A stretch of DNA of 64,000 bases from Xestospongia bergquistia (Eukaryota > Porifera > Demospongiae > Haplosclerida > Petrosiidae): the NCBI GenBank assembly GCA_963965975.1, contig OZ014412.1, positions 9,281,849-9,345,848 of the forward strand, written 5' to 3'. The translations under genes were made by a program, and so were the position numbers. This document shows positions 6,987-64,000 of the stretch, piece by piece. Positions within the stretch are counted from its first letter, which is position 1. Each line of letters opens with the position of its first letter. The notes beneath the pieces were generated by a model. The model was not told the origin of the DNA, made no database searches, and saw only the letters and a program-made list of their open reading frames with translations.

Positions 6987-7429
6987 ATATCAATTTTTTA
7001 AATCTATTTTATAATACGGGATGCTATCAAGTGTAGCATATGCTTTTTTCGGTTTTGGCTGAGAACCTGACATTATCCTGACTTTGTTTAAGAATAAAGT
7101 GATTAATAGTATTTAAAAACATCTAATAATTGCAGTTAATAGTTAATATTAAAATTTTTATCATTAAAATTAATCTGTAGTATATATGCAATTTATAATT
7201 ATATTATACAGTAAAATATAATATTACAATCTATACTGATGAACTGCCAGCATTAATCCATTGCTTCTCAGTTGTGTACATGTCCTCTTCTTCCACAATA
7301 TATTGACTGAGAACAATGATTGCTGTAACTATAACTTACTGTACTAGCATTTGAAAAACATTAGTTTCATCTATTCTACCAGTATCAAGAGATTGTATGA
7401 TAGAGAAGCATACCATAAACAGGGGTGGA
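6987..7429. other. Intergenic spacer
   Basis: AT-rich with no convincing exon on either strand. A region near 7250-7400 shares words with the spacer at about 8990-9120, suggesting it duplicated with the gene cluster. Confidence 0.4.
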
Positions 7430-40149: not shown

Positions 40150-40279
40150 TAGTAAGTAGTTTGTTGTTTATTCTTAATTTGTCTTCTCGCTCACTTTTAT
40201 TTTCTCTTTAAATTACTCAAGACATTATCTTCTTTCCTTTTATTAACAATTTCTTTCTCTAACAAAACTAGTAGACAAA

Positions 40280-41765
40280 CTAGGTATAGCAGTGGTACAA
40301 CAACACTTCAATCAGAATTTCTTTTTCAATTAAAGAGAAAAATACAATAAATATCAGAGCTTATTATTTTGAACAGATACACATGACATGAATCATTTGT
40401 TTCTGGTATATACCAAGATGCTCATGAGTATTACATCCAACTAGTTAATAATTTAACTGAATTATTTGATGAAAGGTAAGGCCTTGTATTATATTTTAAA
40501 TGGTTTATTGTTGACTATAGGACAAAACAAGTATAAGAACAAATTTTTTTATAAATGGATGGAAACAGTTTACAATTCAGTAATCTACTCATTCTACTTG
40601 TGTTAGTAGTTTTTTTTCTTACAGAGGACATTGATGAGTCAGTGTGTATATTTAGTCCTGACACATATCCACATCAGAGACAACTTTATCAGTTATGTGA
40701 TCTACGAGATGACACACTTCAAGCTATTAAACATAGCAGTGATGGAAGAGACCAAATGTTATGTAATAAGTGTTTACTAATAAGACATTATGTCATTGAA
40801 TTGGAGAAAAATCACACAATCTGTCAAGGTAGTTTTTCCGTTGATGCTAACTGAATCTTATTTCCATATTAAGAAATAACTGGATGGTGTGGAGAGGATA
40901 CATATGATAAAATGCACAAAAGAATGATTGACTTGATAATAACTAAAGCACAAAGAGAAGGTATGTCTGGAGACCCAATACAGTAACTGATCTATCACCT
41001 GTTTCTTTCTGCATGAACACGCCTCCTTAATTTTAATATACAAAATGAGAAGGCAAATGTTGGGCTTGTAGGATAATTGTTAAAATTAAGGAAGACAAAT
41101 GTAGAGGCACACTATATATTGTAAAGATGAATGCCAATTGGATATTTTTAGCTAATACTATTCTATTTAATTGTTTAGTTTTGCTATACATTTGAACATA
41201 ACATTGAGAAGCCAGTTACAAAAGAGAAAATGGATCCAGATCTATCTGGTATAGTAGCAGAACTGGACCCATGCATAGTCTCTATAACAGTGACATCATG
41301 TATTTAGATCATATTTCATATTAAGAATTTCTTGCTACAATGTAACTTGGGACTTCATTGAGAGCAATGTGTCAAGTTCTTGTTTTATTTTCTTCTCATT
41401 GATCAGTGGGCTGGGTCACAGAATTATAGACTGTCAGCTGACCAACCAAGCAGATCAAAAAGGCTACATTGTCTTGTTAGCTGTTGACTGATATTTATAA
41501 TCATCACTGAATTTATATAATTCTTCTTTCAATTATAATCATTTGTTTCAGTCAACATCATTAGACATTATATTACAAAGATAAACTGTTATAGTTGTTG
41601 TTAATTGTGGGGCTAGAATAGATAAAGTAGTGTAATATTTGATATATTTAGAAGACATTAAAATTTTAATTAATTATTCATCAGATCAATTAAAAATTAA
41701 CGAACGACACCTCCTCTCTTCCTAAGTATAGTAGGATCTTGAGCCTACTACACAGTCTTTTAGGT
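40280..41765 (+). other. Spacer with unidentified exon-like pieces
   Basis: Open pieces bounded by plausible splice sites: about 40428-40482 (EYYIQLVNNLTELFDE), 40625-40830 (SPDTYPHQRQLYQLCDLRDD, CNKCLLIRHYVIELEK), 40872-40961 (GWCGEDTYDKMHKRMIDLII). Codon content looks protein-like, but the intron phases I can assign do not fit and I do not recognise the protein. Nothing coding is seen from 41000 to 41765. Confidence 0.3.
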
Positions 41766-42299
41766 TTCTAAAAAGTGAAACTTATGTGATGTCACACTTC
41801 TTTATCTTCAATAAATGATGATATTTTGGGAATAGATTTCTTGCTTATTTGAAACACCTACAACCTAATTTCTTTGTCTAATTAATGCACACTATTACAC
41901 ATTGGCAATACACTGCCAATCTTAAAACTTTCAAGGAAAGTATACTTCTGGCAATAAATTGGCTATAAAATTGGCACTCAAGTTTTATTAAATATCATAT
42001 ATCTCTGCTATACTTCCATTTATGATAATAAAACCAAAACTAATACATGGAGGTGGTTGTGAACTTTCTCTCAATACAAGCGTTGCTATGATCTAACACA
42101 CAGTGGTCGAGAAAAATTGGCCAAACCGTTATTTTTAACCAATATTTTATATTAAAACATATCTGTGAAAAAAATTAAGCTTAAAAAATATTTTTGAATA
42201 TATTTTCTAAAACCTTAATCTATATGTCATATTGTAAATGACTACAAAGCTTCTACAATATCCAACAGTTACTAAAATAAGACCATTTACTTACCACAC

Positions 42300-42410
42300 T
42301 CGCCATCTTTACCCCATGGAGACAAACGGAAATGACGTTTATACATAAGCTTATACTTTATTAGCATCCGGTCGAATTCATAATCTCATATCGTATCTAT
42401 CCTCCGACTA
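42300..42410 (+). promoter_or_regulatory. Conserved T-gene upstream block
   Basis: About 100 bp before the T1 start are conserved before T3, including CGGAAATGACGTTTATAC, which combines an ETS-like GGAA with an ATF/CREB-like TGACGT. The truncated T copy used in the chimera (51050) lacks this block and has unrelated sequence upstream. Assignment as promoter is inference from position. Confidence 0.4.
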
Positions 42411-45400
42411 ATGGCCCTCAATATTTGGTTTTATCTGAAACTGTTCCTTCTGACAGGACTAGTAGCTGTAGTACCTTTTTATGGATGGAAATTATGTAAA
42501 CTAGTGTTTAAGGTATGATCTTAACAAAACATTTATGTAAATAATATTTTCTTTTACGTAGACATTTAAGGAGTTCTTTGTTATGTGGTCTTTACTTGAA
42601 GGAGAGAGAAGGTATGATTAATGTAGAATGAAGTTAGAAAATACTTTGAATTTTGCTACAACAATGTCTCTCTAAAAGAGTTTCTCAATACATAACTGTA
42701 GTTTCTTATAGGGCTAAGTGAATCTTAATTGGATTAAGAGTAATTAATTTCATACCACAATCTTGTAATAAAATTATGTAATTGTTCCATATATGGTCTT
42801 CTCTTCCTGTTAGTTCTGATCGTAGACAAGTTAATGTACATACAAAGCTACATCCATACATATGTGAAACTGATATCCTTGATGAAGTAAGTAAACTATA
42901 TAATTTCTATTAACATGAAGTAGCTTTTATAGTGAATACTATGACAATAGGTGCTAGGTACCTCCCTCCCTGTGTAGATAAAGTTTTTTTTGTCTTCTAT
43001 ATAGCATTATGATATGTTGTTTGTAGCTTCTTAGGAACTCTTAGCCTCATTCCCAGACGTTCACAAAAGAAAAGAATGTCTGGTAGCTACTGTTTGTGCA
43101 TGTGTTTAATTTCCACAGATTTCTTGGAAAATAGTATACTTTTAGGAATCCTCCATCAACTATGACGTCAAAATTCCTTTTACCGCGATGTCAAACTGTG
43201 ATGGCTACTTGTAGTACTAATAGAAACTTATCTGTTGCTCTACTCTATGCTCTAAAGCAGCTAGGAAGCCCAAATCTATCTCTTTAAAAAAAGAGCAACT
43301 CTTGTCCGTTGAAGCTATATATGATGGAAAAAATGTGGTCTTGTATCCCAACAGCATTAAATAAGTTTGTCGCTCTTTTTTTTTCAACTAAATCTTTGTA
43401 CAGCTGACAAACTCGACTAGCCATGCTTTAACTCATGTAGTGAATGAAATGTCATCAATATAAACCCAGCCCATTTATTCATCATTTAATTTAATATGTT
43501 GTAATTTGTTGTCACTATATTGCATAAATTATAATAATTAAACGCATGCACAAGCAATAGTTACCAGGCGTTCTTTTCTTTTACAAATGCCTGGGTATGA
43601 GACTAAGGAACTAACTACTATTTTAAAATCTAGCAATAGTGTTTATTGCCTTCTTGAAAATGATGACTTTTTAACAGGTTAATGTTAATGAGATGTTTGA
43701 GTATAGCCGCCAATTCTTTGATATGGAATACAGGTATGTTCCTATAATAATAATAGTAATAATAATAATAATTCCTCTCATGGCTGTGTGTTATTGTCCC
43801 TGTAACGGAGAAAGAGCTCGTTGTGTTAGAGAACATAGAAAGTTTTGTACACATCTGGAAAACTGTTTAGCTGCCGGTGTCCCCTTTGTTCCTCTGGTGG
43901 TTGAGTCTCTGGGGGATGGAGCAATGAAGCAATTAATACCCTCAGGCTAATTCGCAAACAATAAGCTCAACCTATAGGTCTCTCATTATCTTACTCAACC
44001 AATCATCTTTTTGTAATGCCTCTCCGTTGCTCTTTGACACGGGAATGCCTTCATGTGGGCATCCCACATACCCATCATCAGAAGATGGATTGAATGATCA
44101 ATTTCATTCACATAATAATTATTGTTGTTGATAATAATAATAATAATAATGAGCCACACCCACAAGCAATAATAATTAATTTCATAATTTCATATTATAA
44201 AATATTAATAATAATAAAAATTAATAATACTAATAATAACAATAATAAAAATATTTGTTATTATATGTTGTATTTATTTTAATTGCAGTGTTACAGATGC
44301 ACATAAAAATCTTCTTGCTCATAGTCATGTTGTGTTACTACGTGATCGTTTAGCTGGTAGTTTACGAGGATTAATCTTGTTGAATTTTATCAGGAAAAAG
44401 AAGTATACTATATTTAATGTTAGCAGTAACCATGACAACTATATTTTAAGTAACGTTACCTGTTTAAGAATAATATTGACAGAAATAGAGTGATCAAAAT
44501 TTGTAAGATTATAGAAGATTCATTTTTTTACTTTTTAACTAGTACAATTTCTACCACTATTTTATCCAAGTACTGTTTCTTTAACTACTGTTCTTACATG
44601 TACATTTACATGTATGAATTTTACATGTACATGTAAAATTTGTTACATGTAGTTCTATAATACAATAATTTACATAGTATTATTATATTATATTATATTA
44701 AAAATTATTTCATATTATTTCTCTTTATAGGTAGGCACTACTATTATTGATCATCAATACCGTGGTGGTCCATATATTCACATACCTACTGCTTATCTTG
44801 TATTGAAAGGTATTTTAAAAATTAGCATGTGATATCGTCTATTTTTATTGGTTTTCTATAGAACTTATTCGACATCCATTCACTCCTATCTACCTTATTG
44901 GAAAGACCTTTAGTTATAAGAGCTATGTGGTAAGATGGATACAATATAAATGTAATTGCTTATGACTAGAGGATGATTATTTTATTACCTTGAAATATTA
45001 ATAATGATGTCATTGTTGTTTTGGTGTTATATTAAAGACTTGTTTCTACTTGTGCAGACAAAGCATTTTAGTGAGCCCTGTAATCACAATCAACTACACC
45101 CATCATCAAATGCTTGCAGTAGAAACTATTTGTTACTATGTGCATTACCAGTTATAAGATGCAGTTATAATTTTAATTATTGCCCTGCTTTGTAGTAAAA
45201 ACAATGAAAACAAAGCACTTATTACATAACACAAGTCTAAAAACACTTTAAAATCTCTATTTATTTATATTTTAGCAGTTTTGTAGTCTCTCATTATGTT
45301 TTATTAGTTTTTAATTCTCAAAAGTCTATGTTATATTGTGGTAGTATCATATTATAGGATAATGATTTTGTAATTATATACACGGTTTGACCATGTGACA

Positions 45401-47209
45401 CACAGTATTGGGCTAACTCACGTGGTCACATGGCAATGGTTTCATTTCTCATGGAAATTTTGCCTAAGTCTGTGGCCACACCCAAATGTGCACGTGTACG
45501 TGCTACACGCACACATGATGTGTGAAAGCAGCATGATCGAACATTTGTCTGTGCAGAGCTTTTGTCTGTGTTTTGCTATTCCTATTTCAGATTTGCCAGC
45601 AATTGCACTGCAAAACGATTACGTATGGCTAGATTTTATTCCAAAAGAAAACTCTGGAGCTACTATGTACTCATCAAAGTTTAACCCTTTCATTACTCTA
45701 GCTGAATTAATGAGATTCATGAGCAATAAATATGAATATTAATAACTCACACTGTAGCCTTCCCTGAGAGGTCTGTATATATAGTGTAAAAATTAATATG
45801 TTATTTTTACCAAACTAATTTATAGCTTACATGAGTGGATTACTATGGAATCCAAAATTCATTTGAGTTACTCACTGCAGTACAATTTGTTGTTATGTAA
45901 TAGTACAACATACTAACAAACTATACAGCGAGTAATTCACAGAATTCTAGATGTAAGCTACAAATTAGTTTGTTAAAATGAGATATTAATTTATAGTGTA
46001 GTCTTGTTCTAGTTTAGTTTAGAACTTTGTTATATTAATTAATGTAATATTCCACAATATACATATGTAAAATTTTAATGATTTAAGTCTTAAAGATACT
46101 AACTATGAGTGTTGCATACCCTAACTATGAGTGTTGTAATGTTCTAAATAATTCACCGCGAGTGGTGTGGTTTTCTAAATAATGTTATAGCATGTCAAAA
46201 TATTAAAATTTAGCATAACTATTCAATCTCCATTTATAATTAATATTTCCTACTAAAATTAGAAACATTCATTTTTACATACTTTGTAAATTCCACAATA
46301 TACATATGTAAAATTTTAATGATTTAAGTCTTAAAGATACTGTAAATATAAATGTTGTATAACATCATTATGATGTAATGTTAATACTTATTATTAACCC
46401 TTTATACTCTTCTTTTATATGTAGTTTGGAGTAAAATTATGGCCGGAATTTTATCCATGTTATAATAGAAAAATGCCAGATCATTTGAAGAGGTCTTGAT
46501 CATCAATCTATCTATCTGATATTGTATATATCCATTCCCTTTCATATCGTCCATCCATCATCTCTTCCTATATAGCATTGTTGATGAATTTGCTGAAACA
46601 TTACTCCGTAAAGATGAGACGTATGACAAAGAGAGATTTATTATTAACAAAAAGTCTGCTCGCATGAAGGTATCAATAATGTATTCTAAAATAAAAAAAA
46701 GCTGTTTAATACAAATTACTAGGAATTTGTGGCATCTGTTAGTGAAGAAGATCTTCGTGATCCACACATTAAGTTCTTTGTAGAAATGAATCCTGGATGG
46801 AAAGAAGTTAGTATTAGTAACTTAATAATTTGAATGTATATTCTCTTAGGGTAATTGTATGGTGGCTATTGTAGTTCTTACTTGGTATGATGTTTTCAAT
46901 ACTTTATACAAAGGTCTTATTAGATTTAAAAAAGTGAGTTGACCTCTATCCTGTTCCTATTTTATACATCCATCCATTGTCTGTTTATCAGTCTATTAAA
47001 TTCTACTGTATATTAAGCCATCTCTTTATTAATCCTCCTATCTATCCATTCCTGGGAGGACTGACACACAATGGAACCATTTATTCAACTATTAACACTT
47101 TCATTTTTATTTTTCACAGAAAAACAAACGACCCCTACTTCGTGTTCCTTCTCGTCCTACCAGACAAGTTTCTTTTATAGAGAACAGCTCAGGAAAGTAC
47201 GGAATGTAA
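42411..47209 (+). CDS. T1: membrane-anchored protein with GNAT-like body
   Basis: Twelve exons: 42411-42512, 42562-42611, 42814-42886, 43678-43733, 44289-44418, 44731-44809, 44862-44929, 46425-46492, 46576-46669, 46723-46806, 46850-46933, 47120-47209. Phases agree: 325 aa. The N-terminus is one hydrophobic helix (about 5-27, FYLKLFLLTGLVAVVPFYGW). The body (about 95-300) has VVLLRDRLAGSLRG, VGTTIIDHQYRGGPYIHIPT, PFTPIYLIGKTFSYKSYV and FFVEMNPGWKEGNCMVAI. The order strand / Y-R-G turn / helix / late N-P-G-W reminds me of GNAT-fold acyltransferases, but I cannot name the family and catalytic residues are not evident. The donor of exon 5 (AAT|GTTAGC) is weak. An alternative last exon at 47999-48154 joins in frame from a GTACGG donor inside exon 12 and would extend the tail (YHVPRSEIDIGHETCKS). 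Confidence 0.65.
43040..43607. mobile_element. 568-bp MITE in T1 intron 3
   Basis: Terminal inverted repeats of about 50 bp: CTTAGCCTCATTCCCAGACG at left and CTTAGTCTCATACCCAGG in reverse complement at right. GAACT is duplicated at 43035-43039 and 43608-43612. The matching position in the chimera's T part (52250-52254) has a single GAACT and no element, i.e. the empty site. T3 carries the same insertion at 62532-63099. Confidence 0.92.
43740..44165 (+). mobile_element. Retroelement 3'-end relic with (AAT)n, T1 intron 4
   Basis: A coding relic (about 43780-44100) contains HREHRKFCTHLENC-like and VPLVVESLG(G)W motifs. It is related to the relic in monooxygenase copy C (22110-22333) and flanked by (AAT)n on both sides. 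The frame is broken after about 60 codons. The same relic is in T3 intron 4 (63239-63685), where the (AAT)n tracts are longer. Confidence 0.65.
45781..46001. mobile_element. Small MITE in T1 intron 7
   Basis: The first and last 55 bp are inverted copies. The left contains CCAAACTAATTTATAGCTTA and the right contains its reverse complement with one change (GTAGCTTA). The total is about 220 bp and non-coding. Confidence 0.7.
46050..46342. repeat. 51-bp direct repeat in T1 intron 7
   Basis: TTCCACAATATACATATGTA and the following 30 bp occur at about 46051-46101 and again at 46292-46342, nearly identical. The 190 bp between them contain two ACTATGAGTGTTG units. Confidence 0.8.
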
Positions 47210-47318
47210 TAGTAACTCTCTAATTATCATGCACTGAATCTTGTACCTCTAACACACTGTAACATTGTACACAATATTACATGTTGGTATAGTAAACTCT
47301 TCCATTAGTTATAGTCTC

Positions 47319-47659
47319 CAGGGTTGGGGTCAATTACATGAGAATGATTACAATGTGATTATGCAAGGTGATTATAATTACAATTATAAGGAAAAAGAAG
47401 CATGATTTCAATTATGATTATGATTACAGAGCTATCCAAGGTATAATCAGTCTAATTACATGTTCCTTCATGCATCATTTCATAAATATACACTAGCAGA
47501 TGCTACTTGTTTCATGTACTACTTGCAAAGGCTACTGTAATTGATGTAATTACTAGTGATTACAGTAATTACTTTGTCTGATTATAATTACGATTACAGC
47601 AAAAAATTGTAATTGAATGTAATCAATTATGATTACAATTGTAATCAGCCCCAACCCTG
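47319..47659. mobile_element. hAT-type MITE downstream of T1
   Basis: Inverted ends CAGGGTTGGGGTCAATTAC and CAGGGTTGGGGCTGATTAC (reverse complement) enclose 341 bp of GATTACAATT-type simple sequence. The flanking octamers ATAGTCTC (47311-47318) and ATAGTTGC (47660-47667) match at six of eight positions, consistent with an aged 8-bp hAT target duplication. Confidence 0.75.
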
Positions 47660-47998
47660 ATAGTTGCCCCTGACTATCAACTCCCAATGAAGCAATACAA
47701 AGCTTTCTAATTGTTAGTATGTCTCTTAATGATATAGGCCAGTTAAATTCAATAGACAAGCCTTAGCCTTACTTGTTAGACTTCTCCATTTTATCTCATG
47801 TATTAATGTGATTTCTTTTCTAATCCTTTTCCCATTTTTATCTATATACATAATATATATGTTGGCAGAGTAACTTAGTAAGCAAGGGGTTAAAATTAAC
47901 AATCACCGACTTGCAATGTAGTATATTTCAGATGCACTGTATTAATGTACTGTATTATAGGGATATATCCTGCTTATGACATTAGTATATTGTATTAT

Positions 47999-48154
47999 AG
48001 GTACCATGTTCCTCGTTCTGAGATAGACATTGGCCATGAAACTTGTAAATCAAATGAAGTTCGAAAATCTTCTGCGATTATTATTGAGAAACCCTCTCTC
48101 TCTACTACGGTAACTCAATCTGATCTATTTAAGTCAGTTGACCTGGACTGTTAG
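47999..48154 (+). CDS. Possible alternative last exon of T1
   Basis: After an ATTATAG acceptor, an open stretch encodes YHVPRSEIDIGHETCKSNEV followed by a Ser/Thr-rich tail, and ends in TAG. It would be in frame if exon 12 of T1 used the internal GTACGG donor shortly before its own stop codon. It could equally be an exon of an older, longer T gene that is no longer used. Confidence 0.35.
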   Translation, partial: RYHVPRSEIDIGHETCKSNEVRKSSAIIIEKPSLSTTVTQSDLFKSVDLDC

Positions 48155-48823
48155 ACCTATTACCCTCGGTTTTTTTTGTCAAAATGGTTTTATTTCTTAT
48201 TGTATATTAAATTAATTCATTAGTATTATAGCCAGACTTAATACTGGGTGAGACTAGTGTTACCATGGTTACTTATAAACCATCATTAGTTACATGTAAA
48301 TGGCATGTGCTGACCAAAGTTAGTATGTTATAAAAGGTAGAACTCTTATCTTAATTGACATCACATCTTGTCTCAACATTGGATGTATCATTGTTGGATA
48401 GCTCATCTCTTTGTGGGATGTGGGATCACTCATCATTGGATAACTTGGCTCCTTCTTGGACTGATTTCTCATGTATTGTAAGACACTCATCTATTCATCA
48501 GATGTCTCATTTCACTTACATAATAATATATTCTAAAGTAAGAACATCATCTATATTGAACTCTCCTCAGTGTCCTAATTGAGTCCATATCCCAATCTGT
48601 CCACTACAGAGAGGGTAACAACTTAAAATTATGTGTTCATTATAGGCATTTTTAACACCTTATCTTTTTTGGATATATATCCTTTACCCTCTAGTCCATA
48701 TATGAACTAGACCATACTACTACTTACATATACATGTACTTACTTTCTAATCTATCTATACTAAGTGTTCATCCCCCAAGAATGTTCTAAGACATATACA
48801 AATGTTTCTTGTCATGCTAAGAG

Positions 48824-49239
48824 CTAACCAAGCAGCCAGTTGAGTGCTTTGTTAACCATTAGTAATGTAGCAGAGATCGTTGCTGTTCCAATCAATACAT
48901 AAAGCCTATAGGAAAGAAGAATGGATACCATGGTATTAAGATTCAAAGAAACTCTATCTTTAGGATTATTGTTCTATATTCTAATTCTGTACTCTATACC
49001 AAGTACTCCTTGACTCTACTATAAGAACACTCATTGATAAAACCAAAGTTACTGTATTCTACCTATATTCTGATAATATATGGGTGACTGTGTGATCTAA
49101 CGAGACATTCACATACCTTAAATTATGTTGCTTAGTAAACAATGTAATGTATCTGTTGTTGTCCCCAATAAAGCTAGAATCAACAATGTTAAGGCTAAAG
49201 AGAGCAGAATAGAGAAGATATTGATAGACAAACAGTGTT
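48824..49239 (-). pseudogene. C-terminal exons of an unidentified membrane protein
   Basis: Two minus-strand exons, 49117-49239 and 48824-48905, join in phase and end at a TAG. They encode LFVYQYLLYSALFSLNIVD, DNNRYITLFTKQHNLR and a TM helix LYVLIGTATISATLLMV. Upstream exons are not visible beyond a doubtful piece near 49330-49390. I do not recognise the family. It may be a real gene whose 5' part I missed or a fragment. Confidence 0.4.
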
Positions 49240-49534
49240 CTATAATAGAAAAAATATATATGTACAAAATAAAATGATTATATCGAGAAGATATCTGTCA
49301 CTAGAGCTATCTCTGAGAGTGAGTGACAACATGTTACAATACAACTCTTGTTGGTTCTGGCAATATCAAATCTGAAGAAAAAATTCAGTGTCATCATGTG
49401 ACTATCACATGCATGTACGTACAGTGGAGCCTATCATAAAGACACCATTAATTTAGAATATCTAACCAGTATTATTTATATTCTGTCTAAATTGAACATG
49501 TGTTATTATTATTTACATGTCTAATGTACATTAG

Positions 49535-49768
49535 ATGAAGAACACCTTTGGGCCGATGTAACAGCATCAATGATGTCTGATGAGGAAGCTGTTGAAGATG
49601 GATCCATGAAACGAAGACAACCTGAATGGAGGTCACAAGTTTTTAATGAATTTATGGATAGATTAAATGAAAGGGCTACAAACTCAAAATTTGCTAGGAA
49701 GAAAAGGGTAATTGGCACACCAGTGAAGTCAGATTTCCCTGCAAACATCAAACCATGGATGATATGAT
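49535..49768 (+). pseudogene. Transposon-associated small ORF fragment
   Basis: An open stretch after an acceptor-like AG: WADVTASMMSDEEAVED, KRRQPEWRSQVFNEFMDRL, ARKKRVIGTPVKSDFP, then stop. The acidic patch followed by RRQPEWRS and a basic tail resembles short ORFs I remember as repeated in sponge and cnidarian genomes. No transposon ends are seen nearby. It is probably not a host gene. Confidence 0.4.
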
Positions 49769-49799
49769 AATTCAGTATGTGACAAACATCAGCACAAAT

Positions 49800-51049
49800 A
49801 TTACACATATTATCATTTATGTATTCATATTATCACTTATCTGTACAAATTTTCTGTTATCACTTATTAATAGAAATTCTGTTTTCATTTATTTTTGAGT
49901 CCAATCATCTTTTCATGTGAATTAATGATACAATAATTTACAAAAATAATTCTAAAATGTAAAGGAAGTTATACAATAGAATATACAGTGGTGAGTATTT
50001 CACTAGGGGAGCTATACATCTGATATACAAGTATTTTACTACCAATATACAGTATGAATACACAAGTGTATAACATGGAAAATACTTTAAGAATACAATA
50101 GTATGTAAACTGTTCCAATACATATATAATACATAGCATGTATTTCATGTGTATACTATAGAATACATAATAATGTAAAACAGTAAAATACACAATGTAT
50201 ACAGTAGAGTATAACAGAGATCTAGCACAGTGAAATGTAGTGACAAATATACTTGATAACAAGAACAGGTAGACTCAATATAATCCTAATGGGAAAGGAT
50301 GATAATATTCTAATAATATCACATGTCCATTGGTATGTTGACTGATTAAATAAGCCACTGCAGTATCTCAGAGAGAAATACCTCATGATAAAAAGGATCA
50401 AACAATAATGTATGTCATTTATCTGATAGAGTAATGATGAATAGAGACAGATGATAAAAGTTATAGTGCATAGATGAATTGATGTGGAGAGTGGATGGAT
50501 ACCTATTGCAGATGAGTATGTTGGACATTAGATAGATGTATTAATAGATAATATCTATACCTGCCACTGACTGCCAGTAGTCCATGTCTAATTATTGTAG
50601 TAGTTCTAATAAACACATTAACAGTCTATACTAATATAGAGTAAGTAACACATAGTAATAGAAGAACTTACTGAGGAAAACTTTGTACTAGTTATATCTC
50701 CTCCATTAAATTATCATCAGTGTATTTATCTCTGCCTCTTATTAGTGTTAAACAAATGAAATGTCCAGTACCTTATATTATAATATTGAACTAAATGTCT
50801 TATTGGTTATCAATACATATATTCTTTTTATGTCATTGGAAATTAGTATTAAACTAAATAGTTATGTGTTATTTATTATACATATCTGGTTGCTGTTGGT
50901 AAATGGCATGAACCTCAGTCAATTTATCTTGTTCTGTCTCATTTACATTACCTTGTTTATTACCATCCTTAGCCTCGTAAGTATTAAGTGATCAGGCGCC
51001 TGGTGCGGTATTACCGTATTACTCACGTGGGATTAAATTTTTCCGCCTA
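49800..51049. other. AT-rich spacer upstream of the chimera
   Basis: No convincing exon. Long minus-strand open stretches at 49938-50262 are products of a TATACAGT-like biased composition. About 80 bp at 50775-50860 recur at 60900-60985 (shared word ATTGGAAATTAGTATTAAAC), another trace of duplication. Confidence 0.5.
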
Positions 51050-54000
51050 ATGGCCATCGACATTTGGTTTTATCTGAAACTGTTCCTTCTGACAGGACTA
51101 GTAGCTGTAGTACCTTATTATGGATGGAAATTATGTAAACTAGTGTTTAAGGTATGATCTTCACAAAACTTTTATGTAAATAATATTTTCTTTTACGTAG
51201 ACATTTAAGGAGTTCTTTATTATGTGGTCTTTACTTGAAGGAGAGAGAAGGTGTGATTAATGTAGAATGAAGTTAGAAATTACTTTGAATTTTGCCACAA
51301 CAAGTAGGCCAGTCTAAGGTTTTAATTTTTATGGTGAATCTGAAAAATGTGCAACAGTTTCTCTGCTTTTTAAGAGAAGCATTGAGTAACATGATTCTGT
51401 TGAATTTCACATTAACTAGAGAACTTTAAGCTATTATTAGTATGAATGTTGTCATTGGTAGTATCACAATAAGATATACCCTAATCACCATTTATTACCA
51501 TACAATACTATACAATACAATATGTAATAATTGATTTAATTATAATAAATAAAACTAACTTACTCTTATTAACAACCTTTGTACATAATAAAGAGATCAA
51601 TAGATTGTAAATTATAGCTTCTGAATAGCTTCCTTCTTTCTTGGCTTTGATAACATGATATAATTGAACTCAAATTTTACTAGACTAAAATCCTATGTTC
51701 TGACTTCTGATACAAGAATTTAATAGGACTCTGTGATATTACCACTTGAAATCATAGAACATTTTTATAATTTGTAATGTTATTCTCAGAAGTAATTTTT
51801 ACACGATTATATTAATCTAAATTGTCCTTTGAAATGTTATATCAACATAATGATGTAATGAAAGTCTCTCTTAAAGAGCTTCTCAATACATTACTGTAGT
51901 TTCTTATAGGGCTGAGAAGAAATCTTAATTGGATTAAGAGTAATTAAATTATATAATTTCATACCACAATCTTATAAATTATGTAATTGTTCCATATATG
52001 GTCTTCTCTTCCTGTTAGTTCTGATCGTAGACAAGTTAATGTACATACAAAGCTACATCCATACATATGTGAATCTGATATCCTTGATGAAGTAAGTGAA
52101 CTATATAATTTCTATTAACATGAAGTAGCTTTTATAGTGAATACTATGACAATAGGTGCTAGGTACCTCCCTCCCTATGTAGATAATGTTTAAAGTACTT
52201 CTTTCTTTGTCTTCTATATAGTATGATATATTTTGTTTCACAACTTCTTAGGAACTCTCTACTATTTAAAAATCTATCAATAGTGTTTTACTATGCCATT
52301 GCCTTCTTGAAAACAACTATAGGATAATTTTATAGTAATAATAATAATGTCTTTTGTAATAACAGGTTAATATTAATGAGATATTTGAGTATAGCCGCCA
52401 ATTCTTTGATATGGATTACAGGTATGTTCCTATAATAATTCTATCTGAGATAATTATCAGTGAATATAGTGAGAGATCATTTTCATATTATCTGGATTAA
52501 TAGTGGTATTTTCTCTTGAATATCTACAGCTCAGATATATGACCAGATGAAGACTAATATTGCTCAAGAGAAAGGAACAACAAGTCATGATGATGCAATG
52601 GAGATTACAGAATCTGAAAATTGGATTACATCAGAGGACATTATTTATAAGGTTATTATTATACTATAGTGTTCTACTAAATGTTACTATGATTTCATAG
52701 GAATCTAATGTGATGGCAAAATGGGATATATTAAATTCAAGTGGAAAGAGACCACTAGAAGATAAAGAGATATCAGATGAGGACTTAAAAAGGAAGAAGG
52801 AAAGACATCATTCAGAACCAACATCTGATTATAATGGTACACGATAATATACTGTTCACTAACTGAAGTGTATTTATATATTTTATTATAGTCCATGCCA
52901 GTGACATTTTACGTTGTCATTATGGTACTCTCTCTCAATCTCTCCAATATCCAGTTCAAGTAGCAGAACTACTTCATGGAGAAGGAGTCATTTCAGATGA
53001 TACTCTAACTATATCTACTCAGCCATTAATGTCACTATTAAAAGCTGTACGTGGTGCTGTCCATAGCAACTATCGTAACCTAAAAGTGTTTGCCAGTGTA
53101 CTTCAAAGATTCACCAATAATATTAAATTAGGTGATGTCATAATGAGTGACTATAGTAAGTTATAAAGTTTATTACATAATGTAATTTTAAAGTATTATT
53201 AAAATTATAGAGCAATCATTTGAAGATAGAACAACACACACTAAACCACTACTACACAGTGAAGGTATATTGTGTTAATATTAATATTATTATCATATTA
53301 TATCTCTTATTGTAGGATCTACTCATAGTCTATCTCATATAAACAATGAGTCTGTTCAAGGTAATATCCTTTATATTCATCTAATAATATTTACTATATC
53401 ATAGATGGGATTTTTGTTCCACGAAGTATGAGTCCTATGTTTAATTCAATGAGACTAGAATTTGGAACAACCTTTAGTAAAATCCGAGATGCTATTAAAG
53501 AGACTTCTGTAACTTTAGAAAACTTAAAAACCTTCCTCCGAGACTGTTATCCTGACCTCAGTCCTCAGTTAACTCATACCAGCAGTAATACACTAGATGA
53601 CATACTGGAAATTGTTAAAGAGAAATGTACATTAATTGACATTGGTATTTTAAAAGCTATTGCCAAACGATTTGGTATTACAAAAGCTGATGTTCACATT
53701 AAAACTTATGAAGATGCTATTGAGGAGTTTTGTTCCACAGTAACAACACGTCTAAGCCTCCAGGAATCTCTTGTGGTGTCAACCAGTTCTCCTCTCAAAT
53801 GTGAGACTGCTAAGTTTGTTCTTGAATGGGATCCTGACAAGACTTCACTGACTGACATTAAAAACCTTTTGTCAGTTGCCTTTGAAAAGTTAAATAAAAG
53901 AGTTAAAGTAATTATTGTGACTGAGGGTAACTCCATCATTGTGACCTGTACCTTTCCACTCAGTATGACAACTTTATTTATTGCCAGAGCTCAGGAGACT

Positions 54001-57000
54001 CTTGAATCAGTTAAAATGAGAGGATTACTCCAACTTACAATTGGTCATTGTACCATTTATGATCATAGAAGAGACAAGGTAAGAGATGAGTAGTATTAGA
54101 CAACAGTTACTACATGTGTTGTTTATTGATATATAGGAGGTTAGAACTATTGTAGAAGAGAGTACAAAGGAGTTGAGAAGTTGTCTGGAACTAGAACAAA
54201 CCATGCGGAAAAAGATGACTATCCAAATATCATCTATTATCAGACAAAATGAAGGTATATTGTGTACAGCTATTGTTTTATTTAATAACTGTCTATTATA
54301 TGATATATCTGATTAATAACTTAATGTTCCTTTATATAGAAACAAGAGAAATGAAAGAAAAGACAATTGAAGATTTAACATCACTTGTGAAAACAAAAGA
54401 AGGTAAATTAATACAACATCAATCAAAAGTCCAATGTTGTCAGTATTTTACATAATATATTAGTGATCAATTTTCTTCTCATTTTATATATAAAGCTATT
54501 GAGAAGAATATACTGTCAGTGTCTACTGAGAGACAGAAAGAGCTAGAGACACTACAAGAAATCATAACGTCATTGACTTTACAAGTAAGAGAGAGAGACC
54601 AACAGATTGAGGAGTTAAAACAGAGCTTGAAAGGTAACTGGTATTAGTGACTTCTCATTATATGACATTGTTACTAGATCTAGCATTCATACCAAAGGTT
54701 CGTAAACCATTAACCAAAGACAGTTCCTTACCTCATCTAAGTAGGTTACACAAAGTCATAATGTTGTCAGTAATAATATATTGATAATCTAATTACAAAT
54801 ATTAAACTTATTGACCAACAGAGTCTTCAGATGACATATTGAAGGATTCTGATGATAAAGAGTCAATCAAAGGTATGTATCTTTGAATATATGTCATTGT
54901 TAGTTATGATAAATGCAAACAAGATCACAATTATGATAAAAATGACATCCTATAATTGTGATGTTAACAGTTATTTCTTGATAGCTGTAGACTTCTCTCA
55001 TAAGACAATAACCTCTAACATTTTCACAAAATGTCTATGAAAAATGGTTGCTTCTTGTATTCGTTAATTGCAGTCTAAAAATATAAGTGAACAAAACTTA
55101 CTAAGGGTCTATGGAGACTTTGCAGTTCCTTACTAGACACACACCCACTCACTTAATGCGAGAAAAGGTGTCTGGTGACTTTAGTCCAATTCCTTGTATT
55201 TAAACCACTTTTTTGGCTCACCAATCAGAATAGTCCTAGGTCATGATGTTGTGAATGTCACTGTTAACAATGGAGAACAAAGTATGGATATCTAGACTCA
55301 AAGATGTTGTTCTTTTTAAAATATTTTCAAAGGAATCAATTTTTGGTACTCAGAATTAGTAAACCAATTGTTGATCAAAAGAGAAAGCTTTTTGTCAATT
55401 TTTAGAAGATAGAAATGTCTTCATTATGTTTTTTTTTGATGTTAAGGCATTATTTTCTAGTATTCTTTGAAACAAAGACTTCAGCTCCTTAGTGTACAAC
55501 TTGTAATGTAACCAGTTATCTTTTCATCTATTGTAATAACACATTTCAATGATGACATCATCCAATAGTGCAATACAAGGGAATGGACTAAAATCACCAG
55601 TCACCACCCTTTCTTGCAAATAAGCAAGTGAGTGTCTGGGAATGAGACTATTTTAAAATAAAATTCATAATAATATTCTAAGCAAACTGTACCCTAAAAT
55701 TTATTTACAAATATTTCATAATTATACTTCATTACAAACTAAAACTTAATTCATAGCCTTTTTAAATAGCTGCTGATTATTATAGACAAGATATTTTTTC
55801 ATTTACTAATTCTTAAAACAATCTGCTTGTCTTTCTTCTATCAATATCTTAACTAATAAGTTTCATCAGATCATTTCATTATTTATAGACTCATTATATC
55901 TAGTCAGTTAGTAAACTCTACGATTCACAAGTCTCAAATTGATATATTAATACCTGATATCTAGTGATGTGTTCTGTTAATATGATAACAATGATAGAAT
56001 TATATTTATTGTTCCTCTATAGCTATATCAACACTCTGTCTAGTTAGCAAAATTTGATAAGCCCCACCTTCTCATAAACTCTTGCCATCGTAACCATATT
56101 CAATAAACAGTAATGGCTTCCTTTCTTCTTCAGTGTATTGTCTGTATATTGTAGTGTGTTATAGTATATATTACTATGTGTGTACTATACTATATACTAA
56201 CTCTGTTTTATAACAGGAGACACTGGAAGTGTTCAGTGGAGAGATGATGACAATAGTGTTAGTCTCATTAGACCAAGTGTAGTAGAAAGTGAAGATGTTA
56301 TAAGTAAATTAATAAAAGAACAACAAACAGGAAAAGAATGGAGTATTCGTCTCATCTCATCATCTCCTGAAAGTACTGCAGTTATTATAAACAATCTTAA
56401 TAAGTGCACAGTGAGGAGACTTCATATATTCAACACTTCATTGGACAGTAAGTGTGTATCGATATTATCAGAGATACTAAAAACTAATAAAACAATAAAG
56501 ATACTACAGATGAACTCCTCTTCACTTACTGGTGGTATCAAACAAGTCAGTGATAGTCTCTTTAATAACAAAACACTTGAGGAATTAACGTTGTTAAATG
56601 TTACTGGTATCACAGATGAAGATATGACTCGCTTATCTACTATATTAGCAAGTAATACAACTTTAAAAGAGCTATATCTCTCCAACTGTAACATCACTGA
56701 TAATGGAGTCCAGTATATCTGTGAAGGACTTACTAAAAACCAAACATTGACTACATTGGACATCGGAGGTAATCCTGAGATCACTTCAGTTAGTACCAGT
56801 ACAATAGCAGATCTAATACAAACAAGTACATCATTGACAACACTTTATCTCCACTATACTTTGCTAAACAATGATGATATCAAGACAATATGTACATCAC
56901 TTAATAAAAATACTACAATATGGACAGTACACTTATCAAAACAATATGAAGAGTATTGTAAGACCTTAGACAGTTATCAAGTTATTAAAGACAGACTTGT

Positions 57001-57013
57001 GTTCTGGTATTAG
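51050..57013 (+). CDS. T-D chimera: membrane segment fused to CARD-like/coiled coil/LRR
   Basis: T-derived exons: 51050-51151, 51201-51250, 52019-52091. Composite exon 52366-52468 runs T exon 4, 15 nt of former T intron, then the tail of D exon 2 (FDMDYRYVPIIILSEIIISE). D-derived exons: 52530-52651, 52701-52836, 52892-53155, 53211-53264, 53316-53360, 53405-54078, 54137-54254, 54340-54402, 54496-54633, 54678-54740, 54822-54872, 56217-57013. If the composite exon is used whole, phases agree to the stop: 950 aa. The product would have T's N-terminal TM helix (about 5-27), then D's second helical module, the 225-aa domain, coiled coil and LRRs. The Death domain and first helical module are absent. 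Caveat: the old T donor (AG|GTATGT, 52421) is still present. Using it would frameshift into a stop in the next exon. If the chimera is not made, an internal ATG in the 52530 exon could start a shorter D product. Confidence 0.55.
51303..51865. repeat. Insertion in chimera intron 2
   Basis: About 560 bp present here but absent from the matching intron of T1 (42612-42813) and T3. It is AT-rich and non-coding. I see no clear inverted ends, so its type is unknown. Confidence 0.6.
55131..55650. mobile_element. MITE in chimera intron 13
   Basis: Duplicate of the MITE at 36695-37214, at the equivalent position of the D-derived part. It was therefore inserted before the D duplication. Confidence 0.75.
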
Positions 57014-57769
57014 TTGTTTATTCTTAATCTATTTCTCAATCACTTTTATTTTCTTTTAAATTTCTCTTAACATTATCTTCTCTTTTATTAACAATTTCTT
57101 TCCCTAACAAAACTAGTAGACAATAAAAATAGAGCAGTTTTACTCAACATTTACTTCTCTAACGTCGCACTTTTTTTCTCTTTGAGGAGGTAGAAGAAAA
57201 CATACTTTAATAATTTTCTTAACTGCTTAGAGAAGTCAACACCTCCTTTCTTATTTTCAGATGAGGTAGAAAACTACACATTAATAATATAACTAGACAA
57301 TTGAGGTCAGTTCAATTGATCAAGTTATAATTAATTTTATATATCAATTGTTACAGTTCAACAATAGATATTTCTGAGATAGAGAAGTTTGCTCACTTAC
57401 ATAACGAATGTTGTAATGATATTAATGGACCGCAATGTACTCTATATTCTATGAACAATGTATATATCACTATTGTAAAGGAGATTATATTGAGGACAAA
57501 GAGAGGAACAATTTGTATATAAGCCTTTAACCTTTAACTGGATACAATATATTAAATGTGGAGTATTATGTAAAGTGAGTTAAAGTAATTGGAAGCAATT
57601 ATTATCTTCTCTCTCTCTCTCTCCATATATCAGCCATTAAGTTAGTGACATCATATCATTTATATTATTATGATGAGGTAATAATTACATCATTAATATG
57701 ACAATGTCTTTTAAGATAGAGTATAGGAATTATCTCATTTTAATATATCTGTTATAGTCTAAATTATTC

Positions 57770-58185
57770 GTATTAGAGTTTTTTCACCAAACAAAAAAGA
57801 GATAAATTAAGCCAAATGTTTTGATAGACTACCTTCATCAGTGGCTTAAATATATAGAAATAAAAGTGCAAAAAACAGTCCTATTTATACTAAAGCTGAA
57901 GAACGAAATCAGGATAATTCTCTGCTGGAGGAATGGATGGTGGGCAAGGATAGATGGTTTTCCCAATTGATCTTATGACCAGTCTGGCAAACATGTTCAG
58001 ACAAGGCACTAGAGAAGGAATCCAGCTTTTTTACTGCTCTTTGATGTTCTTCCAGATGTGATAAGTTTATTCCACTTTCTCCAATGTATGTTGTGTTACA
58101 CTCTTGGTAAGGTTTTTTTGATAAACCACACCTGAGTCCTGTAGTCCTGTATTTTTTGATATACCTACAGGCTACATTGTACAAG
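57770..58185 (-). mobile_element. Penelope-like (GIY-YIG) fragment, second copy
   Basis: Same relic as 39330-39754, with PYQECNTTYIGESG, HVCQTGH and a following WENHLSL stretch on the minus strand. Truncated at the same base. Beyond it lies an FKBP-type TPR relic instead of the LRR fragment. Confidence 0.75.
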
Positions 58186-58217
58186 GGACAAGTGATTATA
58201 TAAAGACAAATACTCAC

Positions 58218-58653
58218 TTGCCCCTTTCTGAAGTGAGCCTTAACATTAGCAGTGTTTTCTTCTAAAACCTGTTGTTTGTAAGAGAAACAATTGGATATTA
58301 CTAGTTGTAAAATCTGTGTCATTCACAGTGAGGTCACACTGGGTCCTAGATTTTTTCTACTGGGTCCTATCAATACTTACTTTATCACATTGCTCTTTAA
58401 CTTCTATAGCCTCATCTAACTTGAGATGGCAGGCAGCCATGTTAAGAAGAAGTAAAAGACGGACATTTTTAGTTTGTTCCTTTTCTTCATCTTTATAAAT
58501 GGAGATTTTATCTACTAGACCATATCCTCATTTATAAACCTTTAGTGCTAACTTGTATTTTCCTGCTTTAAAATAAACAGTGACTTTCTCTTTAATAGTT
58601 GTAGCATCAGTAACTCTGTCTTCTATTTCATCATATTCATATGAACTCTTTGC
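58218..58653 (-). pseudogene. FKBP4/5-type TPR fragment
   Basis: Two minus-strand exons, 58381-58653 and 58218-58268, with good splice sites and matching phase. They encode IKEKVTVYFKAGKYKLALKV, NMAACHLKLDEAIEVKEQCD and VLEENTANVKAHFRKGQ, the TPR region that follows the FK506-binding domains in FKBP52-like immunophilins. An in-frame TGA sits in the first TPR, right after KVYK. No FK506-binding domain is seen upstream (58654-59600), and the next TPR exon is replaced by the Penelope-like fragment. It is a broken piece of an immunophilin gene. Confidence 0.75.
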
Positions 58654-61258
58654 CTATAATGTAAAAAAGAGGATGACCCTTTTAATTAAAACAATAATTT
58701 TGGACATAATAAGTTGTATTCAGACAACAGTAGACTCTGAAAACCATCTATTTATAGAGTGGTATCTACAATATTGTGGTTAATATAGAACTAGTTATTA
58801 GGTGTCTATGAAATAAATGTCTTCCTTGTGCTTTTTTGAAAGGTCTTCCAATATTTTTCTCAGGGAGGCTTTCTTTTTGCTAGTTTTATTATTGTAGATA
58901 CTTCTTTCTTTATAGAGTTAGAGCAATTCACTATGTATTGTCTGGTACATGTAGACATTACACACAAACCAAGTACTATAACCCTCTCATAAGGGTTAAT
59001 AATAAATCACTATAATGAATGGACAATTACCTCTACATCAAAATCTGAAAACCACTATACCATCGAAAACAACAAACAATTTGTCATAAAACAACAAACA
59101 ATTTGTCAAAATTACCATAAACAATACAAGGAATGCAACTTTTACACAAACAAGTACACATGTATATGTCTTTTCAATGTAACAATGTGTAAACATATTC
59201 ACTTTGTTATAAGTATATTAACTCTCGCTTGAATAATACACCAGTAGAGCAATCAAATGTCCCTATGAAGTCACTTAATGTTGGGAATGAGGAAAATATT
59301 CCATGAAGTAAAAGTCTTAGGGAAATACACTACAACAGCTGCCATGAAAGAAGAGATACAGAGAGATATGGATCATCTCATACCTTATTAGATCAATGTA
59401 CAGATGAAGATATCCTGCAATAAACAATATAAGAGCAACATTAAATCTTGTTGAAGTAAATATAATATAGACATCATCTAGATTTAAACAGGCTATCAAA
59501 TGAACCAGCAAACAAAGCATTATCTCCACAAAAATCATTCTTTTCAACTTGAAAACATTGTAAAACTCTATCAACAAAAATCATTGAACCAATCACTACC
59601 AAAAACATGAGCTAAAACAGTCACTTCAATCAAAACTCTAATTATTCAATTTACCTAAGACATCTATAGGTAGGTAGTATCTTATAATGTTTATTTTCAA
59701 TAAACATTGTATACACATATATTTTATATGAGATAATGAGCTTAAAATTGTAATCAATGAAAAGCTGTTGTACATGTATAAAACTTTGATGTAATACTAC
59801 AGTAGTGACAAAGAAATATCAAACCTTGTCACAACTTGGACAACTAATTAGAACAAATAACCTTTTAACATCATTACCAGATGAAATCATTGACAACACC
59901 ATTAATGATGTGAAGAACCATTTCATTTCTGGTATGAATTATTGCAGAGAAGTATATCAAAATATATATTGTAAAGAATTATTTTACATGTTTTTGGTAT
60001 AAGAAATGAAAAGAATGCATGTGAATGGTCCTGTATATTATACAACAATGAATATGATACAACGTGACTTATGTTAAGAGTGGTATCACTGGTATGTTTA
60101 TCAAGACAAAGATACAATTACAATAATTTCACTTACATTTAATTTGGATTATTCACTGATATTTTGACACTTCTCAATTCTCTGATAGTTTGGACTATTC
60201 ACTGATATTTTGACTGTCATGCAGTTCTCTGATTATCTCTGATGTTCTCTGGATGTAAAAGGTGAGTTGCTGTCCTGCCTGGTCTCTTCTGTCTTCTTCC
60301 TTCAAGCCTTCTTTCCTCTTTTAATTTTTTTTTTTATTTTGGGCTCTCCAGCCCAGAAACACTATACACACATTCATACAAACCCTATTAATTATCTCTC
60401 CCCTGCCGGCCTAAAAAATTTTTTCAAAATACCCTAGGCCGCCAGGTGGCGGGGGAGAGCTCTGATCTTCTAGGGTGTGTGTGTGTGTGTTGGTGGTCCT
60501 TTTTCACTTCCTCTGTTTCTCTTCACTCTCTATCCATTCATTGTCACCTTCAGTTAATAACTACTCTTTTTCTTTCCCTGCAGGAGCAGCACTGGTGAAA
60601 AAGGTGAGCTATCTCTCCATCCATCCATCCACTTTTCATCCATTCAGTTGTTATTCTCTCTTTCTTCCTCTATGTTCTCAACTTTTGGACTGACTGGACT
60701 CTTGGGAACTCTCTCTCTCTCTCTTCTCAATCGCTGGATCGGAGACCTTCACTGGACTTCTTGGGGACTCTTCTACTGCAGAGACTGTCTTATTTTATGT
60801 TTTAAAAAAAATTAAACTGTCATTTTTAACTTTTTTCACTAAAATTTGTCGAAATTATTTTAAGCTGTCATTTTTAAAAAAAAACCTTTTTCACTACAAT
60901 TAAACTAAATGTCTCATTGGTTAACATTATCAATATATTCTTTTTATATGTCATTGGAAATTAGTATTAAACTAAATAGTTAATTCAGACACCATTTCAA
61001 GCTATAGCATAGGAAGTAAAATCATTTTCTCTAGAGTGAATAGTGCTACAGAATGAGGAAGATATATCTTTATTCACAGTAGTACAGAGAGATACCCTCC
61101 CTGATATTGAGCCATTTGTTAGAATTGAAACATGACAAAATTATCACAGCAACACAAACATGTAACATACAGTGACAAGAGGATTGTGAGCCATTGATGT
61201 TGTGCACAACTGTCTTTTAGGAACACGTCCTATGTGCTTTTTTCTCCACAGTCTCTTA
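58654..61258. other. Spacer between chimera and T3
   Basis: No gene I can support. A short plus-strand open stretch at 59805-60002 (LLTSLPDEIIDNTINDVKNH) is unrecognised. 60240-60830 is markedly pyrimidine-rich with CTCTCT and CCATCCATC runs and a GC-rich foldback at about 60380-60460. 60900-60985 repeats part of the spacer at 50775-50860. Confidence 0.4.
60380..60460. repeat. GC-rich foldback
   Basis: TCTCTCCCCTGCCGGCCTA is followed after about 25 nt by TAGGCCGCCAGGTGGCGGGG and AGA, which can fold back on it with an internal bulge. This is unusual in such AT-rich DNA, and there is an oligo-A/T run in the loop. The function is unknown; it could be the end of an unrecognised repeat. Confidence 0.5.
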
Positions 61259-61902
61259 TTCTAAAAAGTGAAACTTATGTGATGTCACACTCCTTTATCT
61301 TCAATAAATGATATTTTGGGAATAGATTTCTTGCTTATTTGAAACACCTACAACCTAATTTTTTTGTCTACTGCACACTATTACACATTAGTAATACACT
61401 GCCAATCTTAAAACTTTCAAGGAAAGTATACTTCTGGCAATAAATTGGCTATAAAATTGGCACTCAAGTTTTATTAAATATCATATATCTCTGCTATACT
61501 TCCATTTATGACAATAAAACCAAAACTAATGCATGGAGGCGGTTGTGAACTTTCTCTCAATATAAGCTTTGCTATGATCTAACACACAGTGGTCGAGAAA
61601 AATTGGCCAAACCGCTATTTTTTAACCAATATTTTATATTAAAACATATCTGTGACAAAACTTAAGATTAAAAAAATATTTTTGAATATATTTGCTAAAA
61701 CCTTAATCTATATGCCATATCGTAAATGACTACAAAGCTTCTACAATATCCAACAGTTACTAAAATAAGACCATTTACTTACCATACTCGTCATCTTTAT
61801 CCGTAATTTGCCGTAAAACGCATAGAGATAAACGGAAATGACGTTTATACGTAAGCTTATATTTTATATTAGCATCCGGTCGAATTCATGTCGCTCCGAC
61901 TA

Positions 61903-63234
61903 ATGGTTCTCGACATTTGGTTTTATCTGAAGCTGTTCCTTCTGACAGGACTAGTAGCTTTAGTACCTTTTTATGGATGGAAATTATGTAAACTAGTGTT
62001 TAAGGTATGATCTTAACAAAACATTTATGTAAATAATATTTTCTTTTACGTAGACATTTAAGGAGTTCTTTGTTATGTGGTCTTTACTTGAAGGAGAGAG
62101 AAGGTATGATTAATGTAGAATGAAGTTAGAAAATACTTTGAATTTTGCTACAACAATGTCTCTCTAAAAGAGCTTCTCAATACATAACTGTAGTTTCTTA
62201 TAGGGCTAAGTGAATCTTAATTGGATTAAGAGTAATTAATTTCATACCACAATCTTGTAATAAAATTATGTAATTGTTCCATATATGGTCTTCTCTTCCT
62301 GTTAGTTCTGATCGTAGACAAGTTAATGTACATACAAAGCTACATCCATACATATGTGAAACTGATATCCTTGATGAAGTAAGTAAACTATATAATTTCT
62401 ATTAACATGAAGTAGCTTTTATAGTGAATACTATGACAATAGGTGCTAGGTACCTCCCTCCCTGTGTAGATAAAGTTTTTTTTGTCTTCTATATAGCATT
62501 ATGATATGTTGTTTGTAGCTTCTTAGGAACTCTTAGCCTCATTCCCAGACGTTCACAAAAGAAAAGAATGTCTGGTAGCTACTGTTTGTGCATGTGTTTA
62601 ATTTCCACAGATTTCTTGGAAAATAGTATACTTTTAGGAATCCTCCATCAACTATGACGTCAAAATTCCTTTTACCGCGATGTCAAACTGTGATGGCTAC
62701 TTGTAGTACTAATAGAAACTTATCTGTTGCTCTACTCTATGCTCTAAAGCAGCTAGGAAGCCCAAATCTATCTCTTTAAAAAAAGAGCAACTCTTGTCCG
62801 TTGAAGCTATATATGATGGAAAAAATGTGGTCTTGTATCCCAACAGCATTAAATAAGTTTGTCGCTCTTTTTTTTTCAACTAAATCTTTGTACAGCTGAC
62901 AAACTCGACTAGCCATGCTTTAACTCATGTAGTGAATGAAATGTCATCAATATAAACCCAGCCCATTTATTCATCATTTAATTTAATATGTTGTAATTTG
63001 TTGTCACTATATTGCATAAATTATAATAATTAAACACATGCACAAGCAATAGTTACCAGGTGTTCTTTTCTTTTACAAATGCCTGGGTATGAGACTAAGG
63101 AACTCACTACTATTTTAAAATCTAGCAATAGTGTTTATTGCCTTCTTGAAAATGATGACTTTTTAACAGGTTAATGTTAATGAGCTGTTTGAGTATAGCC
63201 GCCATTTCTTTGATATGGAATACAGGTATGTTCC

Positions 63235-63267
<33 letters not shown>

Positions 63268-63636
63268 TCCTCTCATGCATGGCTGTGTGTGGTTGTCCCT
63301 GTAACGGAGAAAGAGCTCATTGTGTTGGAGAGCATAGAAAGTTTTGTACACATCTGGAAAACTGTTTAGCTGCCGGTGTCCCCTTTGTTCCTCTGGTGGT
63401 TGAGTCTCTGGGGGGATGGAGCAATGAAGCAATTAATACCCTCAGGCTAATTGGCAAACAATAAGCTCAACATATGGGTTTCCCACCATCTCACTCAACC
63501 AATCATCTTTTTTTAATGCCTCTCCGTTGCTCTTTGACATGGGAATGCCTTCATGTGGGCATCCCACATACCCATCATCAGAAGATGGATTGAATGATCA
63601 ATTTCATTCACATATAATAATTATTGTTGTTGTATA

Positions 63637-63688
<52 letters not shown>

Positions 63689-63728
63689 CCACATCCACAA
63701 GCAATAATACTTAATTTCATATTATAAA

Positions 63729-63781
<53 letters not shown>

Positions 63782-63934
63782 TGTTGTATTTATTTTGATT
63801 GCAGGGTTACAGATTCACATAAAATGATTCTTGCTCATAGTCATGTTGTGTTACTACGTGATCGTTTAGCTGGTAGTTTACGAGGAGTAATCTTGATGAA
63901 TTTTATCAGGAAAAAGAAATATACTATATTTAAT
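61903..63934 (+). CDS. T3: third T gene, partial at window end
   Basis: Exons 61903-62004, 62054-62103, 62306-62378, 63170-63225 and 63805-63934 match exons 1-5 of T1 with the same phases, and no frame-breaking change is seen. The first helix reads FYLKLFLLTGLVALVPFYGW. Exon 5 contains HVVLLRDRLAGSLRG as in T1. An in-frame ATG 15 nt upstream (61888) could extend the start by five codons; the start matching T1 is preferred. The remaining exons would lie beyond the window. Confidence 0.7.
62532..63099. mobile_element. 568-bp MITE in T3 intron 3
   Basis: Same insertion as at 43040-43607, with GAACT on both sides. Shared by T1 and T3, absent from the chimera's T part. Confidence 0.92.
63239..63785 (+). 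mobile_element. Retroelement 3'-end relic with (AAT)n, T3 intron 4
   Basis: Same relic as in T1 intron 4, here with an uninterrupted VVESLGGWSNEAINTLRLIG stretch that is broken in T1. Long (AAT)n tracts at 63239-63270, 63640-63685 and 63733-63783 flank it. Confidence 0.65.
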
Positions 63935-64000
63935 GTTAGTAGTAACCATGACAACTATATTTTAAGTAACCTTACCTGTTTAAGAATAATATTGACAGAA

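Follow-up and report, generated by a model that had tools for sequence, protein, structure and literature searches.

Chimeric genes are already known to arise by tandem duplication, when the 5′ portion of one gene and the 3′ portion of another are brought together. In the part of the Drosophila yakuba study drawn on here, 76 chimeric genes formed by tandem duplication were recorded in 15 lines, 24 of which had raised expression over at least half of the duplicated exonic sequence (PMC5460883). Here we describe a locus of the same kind in the sponge Xestospongia bergquistia, lying in a 64,000-nucleotide (nt) stretch (the window, C2:9281849-9345848) of a 146-Mb genome in 21 contigs. At positions 51050-57013 of the window, the first exons of a gene with an N-terminal hydrophobic helix (T) run into the 3′ part of a gene with a Death domain and leucine-rich repeats (LRR) (D). 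The chimera resembles the D. yakuba cases in how the two gene ends were brought together, and in this respect its origin is ordinary; it differs from them, as far as that part of the study describes them, in phylum and in the genes involved, in being known here from sequence alone, and in having its junction within what would be an exon, 3′ of a splice donor that is still intact (PMC5460883). No description of this gene was found in open-licence papers. Our analysis confirms the structural chimera in the assembly and suggests that it is the inner boundary of a tandem duplication, probably of recent origin and a non-productive or weakly productive side product of copy-number change affecting two gene families.

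Identity to T ends at 52439, as judged by BLAST against the window and fetched loci (T1 at 43672-43751, T2 at 63164-63243, and T3), and identity to D runs from 52434 by BLAST, with 34012-39569 aligned to 52434-58000 at 98.5%, and exactly from 52437 by eye. An earlier note on this DNA had placed a junction at about 52437, joining T intron 4 to the interior of D exon 2, and both BLAST and direct reading bear it out. The chimera and its native D parent are laid out as follows, with introns of T and D numbered as in the parental genes.

33369-38578, + strand: native D gene, 14 coding exons, 1050 residues, with the Death domain in exon 1 (33369-33693) and the LRR in the last exon
51050-51151, + strand: chimera exon 1 (T exon 1), with start codon and N-terminal hydrophobic helix, from translation and hydropathy
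51201-51250, + strand: chimera exon 2 (T exon 2), from frame, splice sites and by-eye similarity to the C14 paralogue
52019-52091, + strand: chimera exon 3 (T exon 3), from tblastn with the C14 paralogue
52366-52468, + strand: composite exon, comprising T exon 4 (52366-52421), 15 nt of T intron 4 and the end of D exon 2 (52437-52468)
52437-52439, + strand: junction microhomology, 3 nt (AAT) common to T intron 4 (an AAT repeat) and D exon 2
52530-57013, + strand: chimera exons 5-16, D-derived, the last being the LRR exon (56217-57013) with the stop
52530-52651, 52701-52836, 52892-53155, 53211-53264, 53316-53360 and 53405-54078, + strand: chimera exons 5-10
54137-54254, 54340-54402, 54496-54633, 54678-54740, 54822-54872 and 56217-57013, + strand: chimera exons 11-16

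The surroundings of the chimera are organized as a repeat. Genes follow one another as D–T1–Tx and then, with order and orientation preserved, as D′ (the 3′ part only)–T2–T3, all on the + strand, where Tx and D′ are the two parts that meet in the chimera.

34015-52439, + strand: first copy of the duplication unit, with D from inside exon 2, spacer, T1, and Tx up to intron 4
52437-64000, continuing to window-equivalent 72332, + strand: second copy, with D′ from inside exon 2, spacer, T2 and T3

The duplicated unit measures approximately 18.4–19.5 kb, one breakpoint lying in D exon 2 and the other in T intron 4. Two collinear blocks make up the repeat (34012-39754 with 52434-58185, at 98.5%, and 41748-52439 with 61244-72332), pairing T1 with T2 and Tx with T3, and T3 goes on into later T exons where Tx breaks off, as a one-event model predicts. 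The breakpoints fall in two same-orientation neighbours, the duplicated block is collinear, and sequence of each parental gene on both sides of its breakpoint is present elsewhere in the array, as in other tandem-duplication chimeras. Because the duplication ends in D exon 2 and in T intron 4, the joint between its copies must read T 5′ and then D 3′. The recombination junction of the earlier note is present, not as an isolated event but as a duplication boundary.

When the composite exon is read straight through, the model comprises 16 coding exons (four including the composite, followed by twelve) and 2853 nt, that is, 950 codons and a single terminal stop. The codon count and stop agree with those reported before, which had however been assigned to 15 exons; the claim that the composite exon ends in phase 1 also holds, matching native D exons 1 and 2 (325 and 303 nt). 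The predicted product (P0001) retains the C-terminal LRR exon of the D type (LRR_6, E 1.1e-8) and lacks its Death-domain exon. When the opening 60 nt of T intron 4 were joined in simulation to D exon 2, 5961 of 18120 joins (33%) came out in frame and open, and with one in three such joins in frame, the open frame is unsurprising. Homology to T and D at the junction goes beyond chance; the open frame does not.

The N-terminal helix of the chimera reaches a Kyte-Doolittle maximum of 1.96 over 19 residues (residues 3-21), compared with 1.54 in native D. Besides this helix, the fusion would carry approximately 45 residues of a truncated GNAT-like domain, as the fusion point lies inside the GNAT-like domain predicted for T, and the first helical module of D is cut near its end. 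An exchange of the Death domain and first helical module for a membrane helix had been proposed; the loss of the Death domain and the gain of the helix stand, but the swap is not clean, with the predicted GNAT-like fragment and a remnant of the module left in place.

Native D has a reading frame that is open from exon 1 through the stop, with Pfam matches to Death (E 2.2e-7) and LRR_6 (E 5.7e-9). Scanned against Pfam to E 1, native D gave no NACHT match, and DUF3764 appeared only below the cut-off; by its predicted domains, D would not be placed among the NOD-like receptors (NLRs). Its top four homologues are proteins of Amphimedon queenslandica (29-36% identity), and a fifth, weaker one is a fish NLR-like protein covering 13% of the query. 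The Amphimedon proteins P0002 and P0003 align with native D at 29-30% identity across 99% of its length and, by eye, share its order of Death-like region, helical modules, coiled-coil-like stretch and LRR end; unlike this type, the chimera has no Death-domain exon and keeps little of the first helical module. Another predicted Amphimedon protein, P0005, has a D-family N-terminus identical to that of P0004 for approximately 330 residues, followed by a hydrophobic stretch and a terminal Death domain, and may represent a naturally occurring variant of the architecture or else two genes fused in the gene model. Structure prediction for four D-family sequences gave a mean predicted local distance difference test score (pLDDT) of 45.9, and no fold claim is drawn from it. 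Behind native D, a partial additional D last exon (39748-40278, 88% to 38172-38689) is followed by dispersed repeats.

Exons similar to those of D abound in this genome, with at least 150 Death-type and at least 150 helical-module exons among the best 150 of 799 and the best 150 of 482 candidates, respectively; all those scored pass E 1e-3, a few contain stops, and by eye most lie on contigs C4 and C3. The Death-type matches need not all belong to D-type genes, and some may lie outside them. All 9 D paralogues examined have a close Death exon, and each of the three helical-module loci initially listed without one has a diverged Death-like exon upstream. No other N-terminal swap was found among the 3 loci checked of 20 candidates picked by eye.

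The uncharacterised T family has 64 database matches, one of them identical to the C14 paralogue; few are named, and those that are, including Amphimedon and Oscarella, are all sponges. A hydrophobic N-terminus like that of T occurs in 48 of the 64. There is no Pfam match above the cut-off, and a GNAT-like fold is predicted (model residues 52-288). Chimera exons 1-4 correspond to the N-terminal ~90 residues of T, so that most of the putative GNAT-like region has no counterpart in the chimera. The T copies used for comparison, apart from T3, which starts approximately 6.5 kb beyond the window end, are these.

42411-48241, + strand: T1, T-family paralogue, 3′ end approximate
61903-64000, + strand: T2, T-family paralogue, continuing past the window end
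L039:1922-3013: the C14 T paralogue, intronless, compared with several introns in the C2 copies

Whether the chimeric frame could be expressed depends on which of two donors is used.

52419-52427, + strand: T exon 4 donor, CAG/GTATGT, intact and identical in T1, the chimera, T2 and T3; 8/9 consensus, U1 duplex -8.3 kcal/mol
52466-52474, + strand: D exon 2 donor, ATA/GTGAGA, needed for read-through; 4/9 consensus, U1 duplex -4.6 kcal/mol

The T donor, 15 nt upstream of the junction, has the highest consensus match of all donors scored, and the D exon 2 donor the lowest of the 13 native D donors, although its GT is kept in 9 of 9 D paralogues examined. That T itself uses this T donor is supported by the C14 paralogue, which lacks introns and encodes a protein running on into the segment of T exon 5. 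Splicing from 52421 to 52530 shifts the frame, and the predicted product stops after 97 residues. The straight read-through envisaged earlier thus has an open frame but requires that an 8/9 donor be skipped for a 4/9 one, and on donor match, in-frame expression is unlikely to be the main outcome. An in-frame mini-intron of 39 nt from the T donor (52422-52460) would keep the frame and was rejected, the shortest intron in our D models being 44 nt.

Divergence between the copies is low in several parts: 1.3% in D/D′ non-coding sequence (42/3183), 1.1% over D/D′ as a whole (65/5737, summed), 1.4% between the intergenic stretch 48500-51000 and its copy (35/2471; 5 of 22 bins, chosen as intergenic) and 0.9% in the 5′ regions of T1 and T2 (12/1349), the T 5′ divergences here and below resting on the pairs T1–T2 and Tx–T3, since the other four of the six T pairings were misaligned and set aside. 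D and D′ coding sequences differ by 15 nonsynonymous (N) and 8 synonymous (S) changes (NG86 nonsynonymous rate, dN, 0.0075; synonymous rate, dS, 0.0148). Polarisation against outgroup loci, up to 9 at each site (4-9 where counted) and with mixed states at several sites, assigns 11 changes to the chimera (8 N, 3 S) and 11 to D (7 N, 4 S), with 1 ambiguous. Selection was rejected as a sign of chimera function, the changes being too few to decide either way; the chimera branch shows no measurable constraint and nothing disabling. A donor mutation is not yet expected at this divergence, and the intact T donor therefore says nothing about selection.

In the reading that we favour, the duplicated unit extended from a point within D exon 2 to one within T intron 4. 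The second D copy thereby lost its upstream region, its Death-domain exon and the greater part of exon 2, and it now lies downstream of the T upstream region and T exons 1-4. The T promoter would then drive transcription of these T exons into D′. Because the T donor is intact and the next D acceptor ends 108 nt downstream, most transcripts would be spliced from 52421 to 52530, with a frameshift and a stop after those 97 residues, and a minority may read through to give the 950-residue fusion.

Several observations weigh against this account. The 950-codon frame is open throughout, and the D/D′ global alignment has all 6 of its gaps outside coding sequence (BLAST places 9 gap openings). Three native D donors form a stronger U1 duplex than the T donor (-10.0, -9.5 and -8.7 kcal/mol) and two used D donors a weaker one than the D exon 2 donor (-4.1 each), while the 108-nt intron from the T donor exceeds 12 of 13 native D introns and the alternative of 61 nt has a typical length. 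No match between the spacers 39754-41748 and 58185-61244 is found by BLAST. Divergence reaches 3.6% in the 5′ gene region of Tx and T3 (50/1387) and averages 3.05% over the T block (317/10375; bins 0-11%), and such unevenness calls either for gene conversion afterwards or for a history of more than a single event. We read it as a single event followed by patchy conversion among the T copies.

That the fusion is instead a functional new gene, in which read-through gives a D protein that is anchored in the membrane and lacks the Death domain, perhaps acting as a decoy or as a tethered sensor with cytosolic LRRs, we consider unlikely. Its 951 codons, stop included, keep the native phases, its D-derived part has neither gap nor stop, the hydrophobic helix is present, the weak donor retains its GT across the paralogues, and the predicted relative P0005, by eye, likewise pairs a D-family N-terminus with a later hydrophobic stretch. 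Yet the T donor would have to be skipped, the GNAT-like fragment and the helical module are both truncated at the junction, the branch shows no measurable constraint, and a third of simulated joins are equally in frame. Were skipping frequent enough for a working gene, to which we would give a poor chance, a membrane-tethered, Death-less LRR decoy or sensor would have arisen in one step.

The higher mean divergence of the T block than of D/D′ could also reflect two steps, an older duplication of T1–Tx into T2–T3 followed by insertion of a D 3′ copy into Tx and deletion of the rest of Tx. This history is unlikely: it requires that extra insertion and deletion, BLAST finds no remnant of the 3′ half of Tx between 58185 and 61244, and the intergenic stretch and the T1/T2 5′ parts have diverged as little as D/D′. 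The spacers bear on a further possibility, that two haplotypes of a single D–T–T locus were joined in tandem during assembly. Native D's own 3′ flank departs after 39754, and the two spacers carry different dispersed repeats; behind the chimera lies the following stretch.

58151-58816, + strand: D-family 3′ flank, up to 90% to copies on C4

The divergence of ~1.3% is compatible with heterozygosity and the junction is known from one assembly, but the window is without any N and the junction is a clean 3-nt microhomology inside genes. Assemblers, to our knowledge, do not normally join on 3 nt. We regard an assembly artefact as highly improbable.

Elsewhere in the window, 1017-25517 holds three diverged tandem copies (~81-93%) of a multi-kilobase unit, inside which an open frame on the minus strand (6585-6989) carries a DOMON domain. 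A 316-residue open frame, also on the minus strand (25739-26686), matches the mitochondrial carrier family (Pfam E 9.9e-66, three matched stretches).

The locus cautions that an open frame across a chimera counts for little as evidence of a new gene while the old splice donor persists. As it stands, the locus is a clean case of duplication producing a chimeric locus; translation of the fusion, should it occur, would make it an example of the large Death/LRR repertoire of early animals gaining new cellular locations through a single event.

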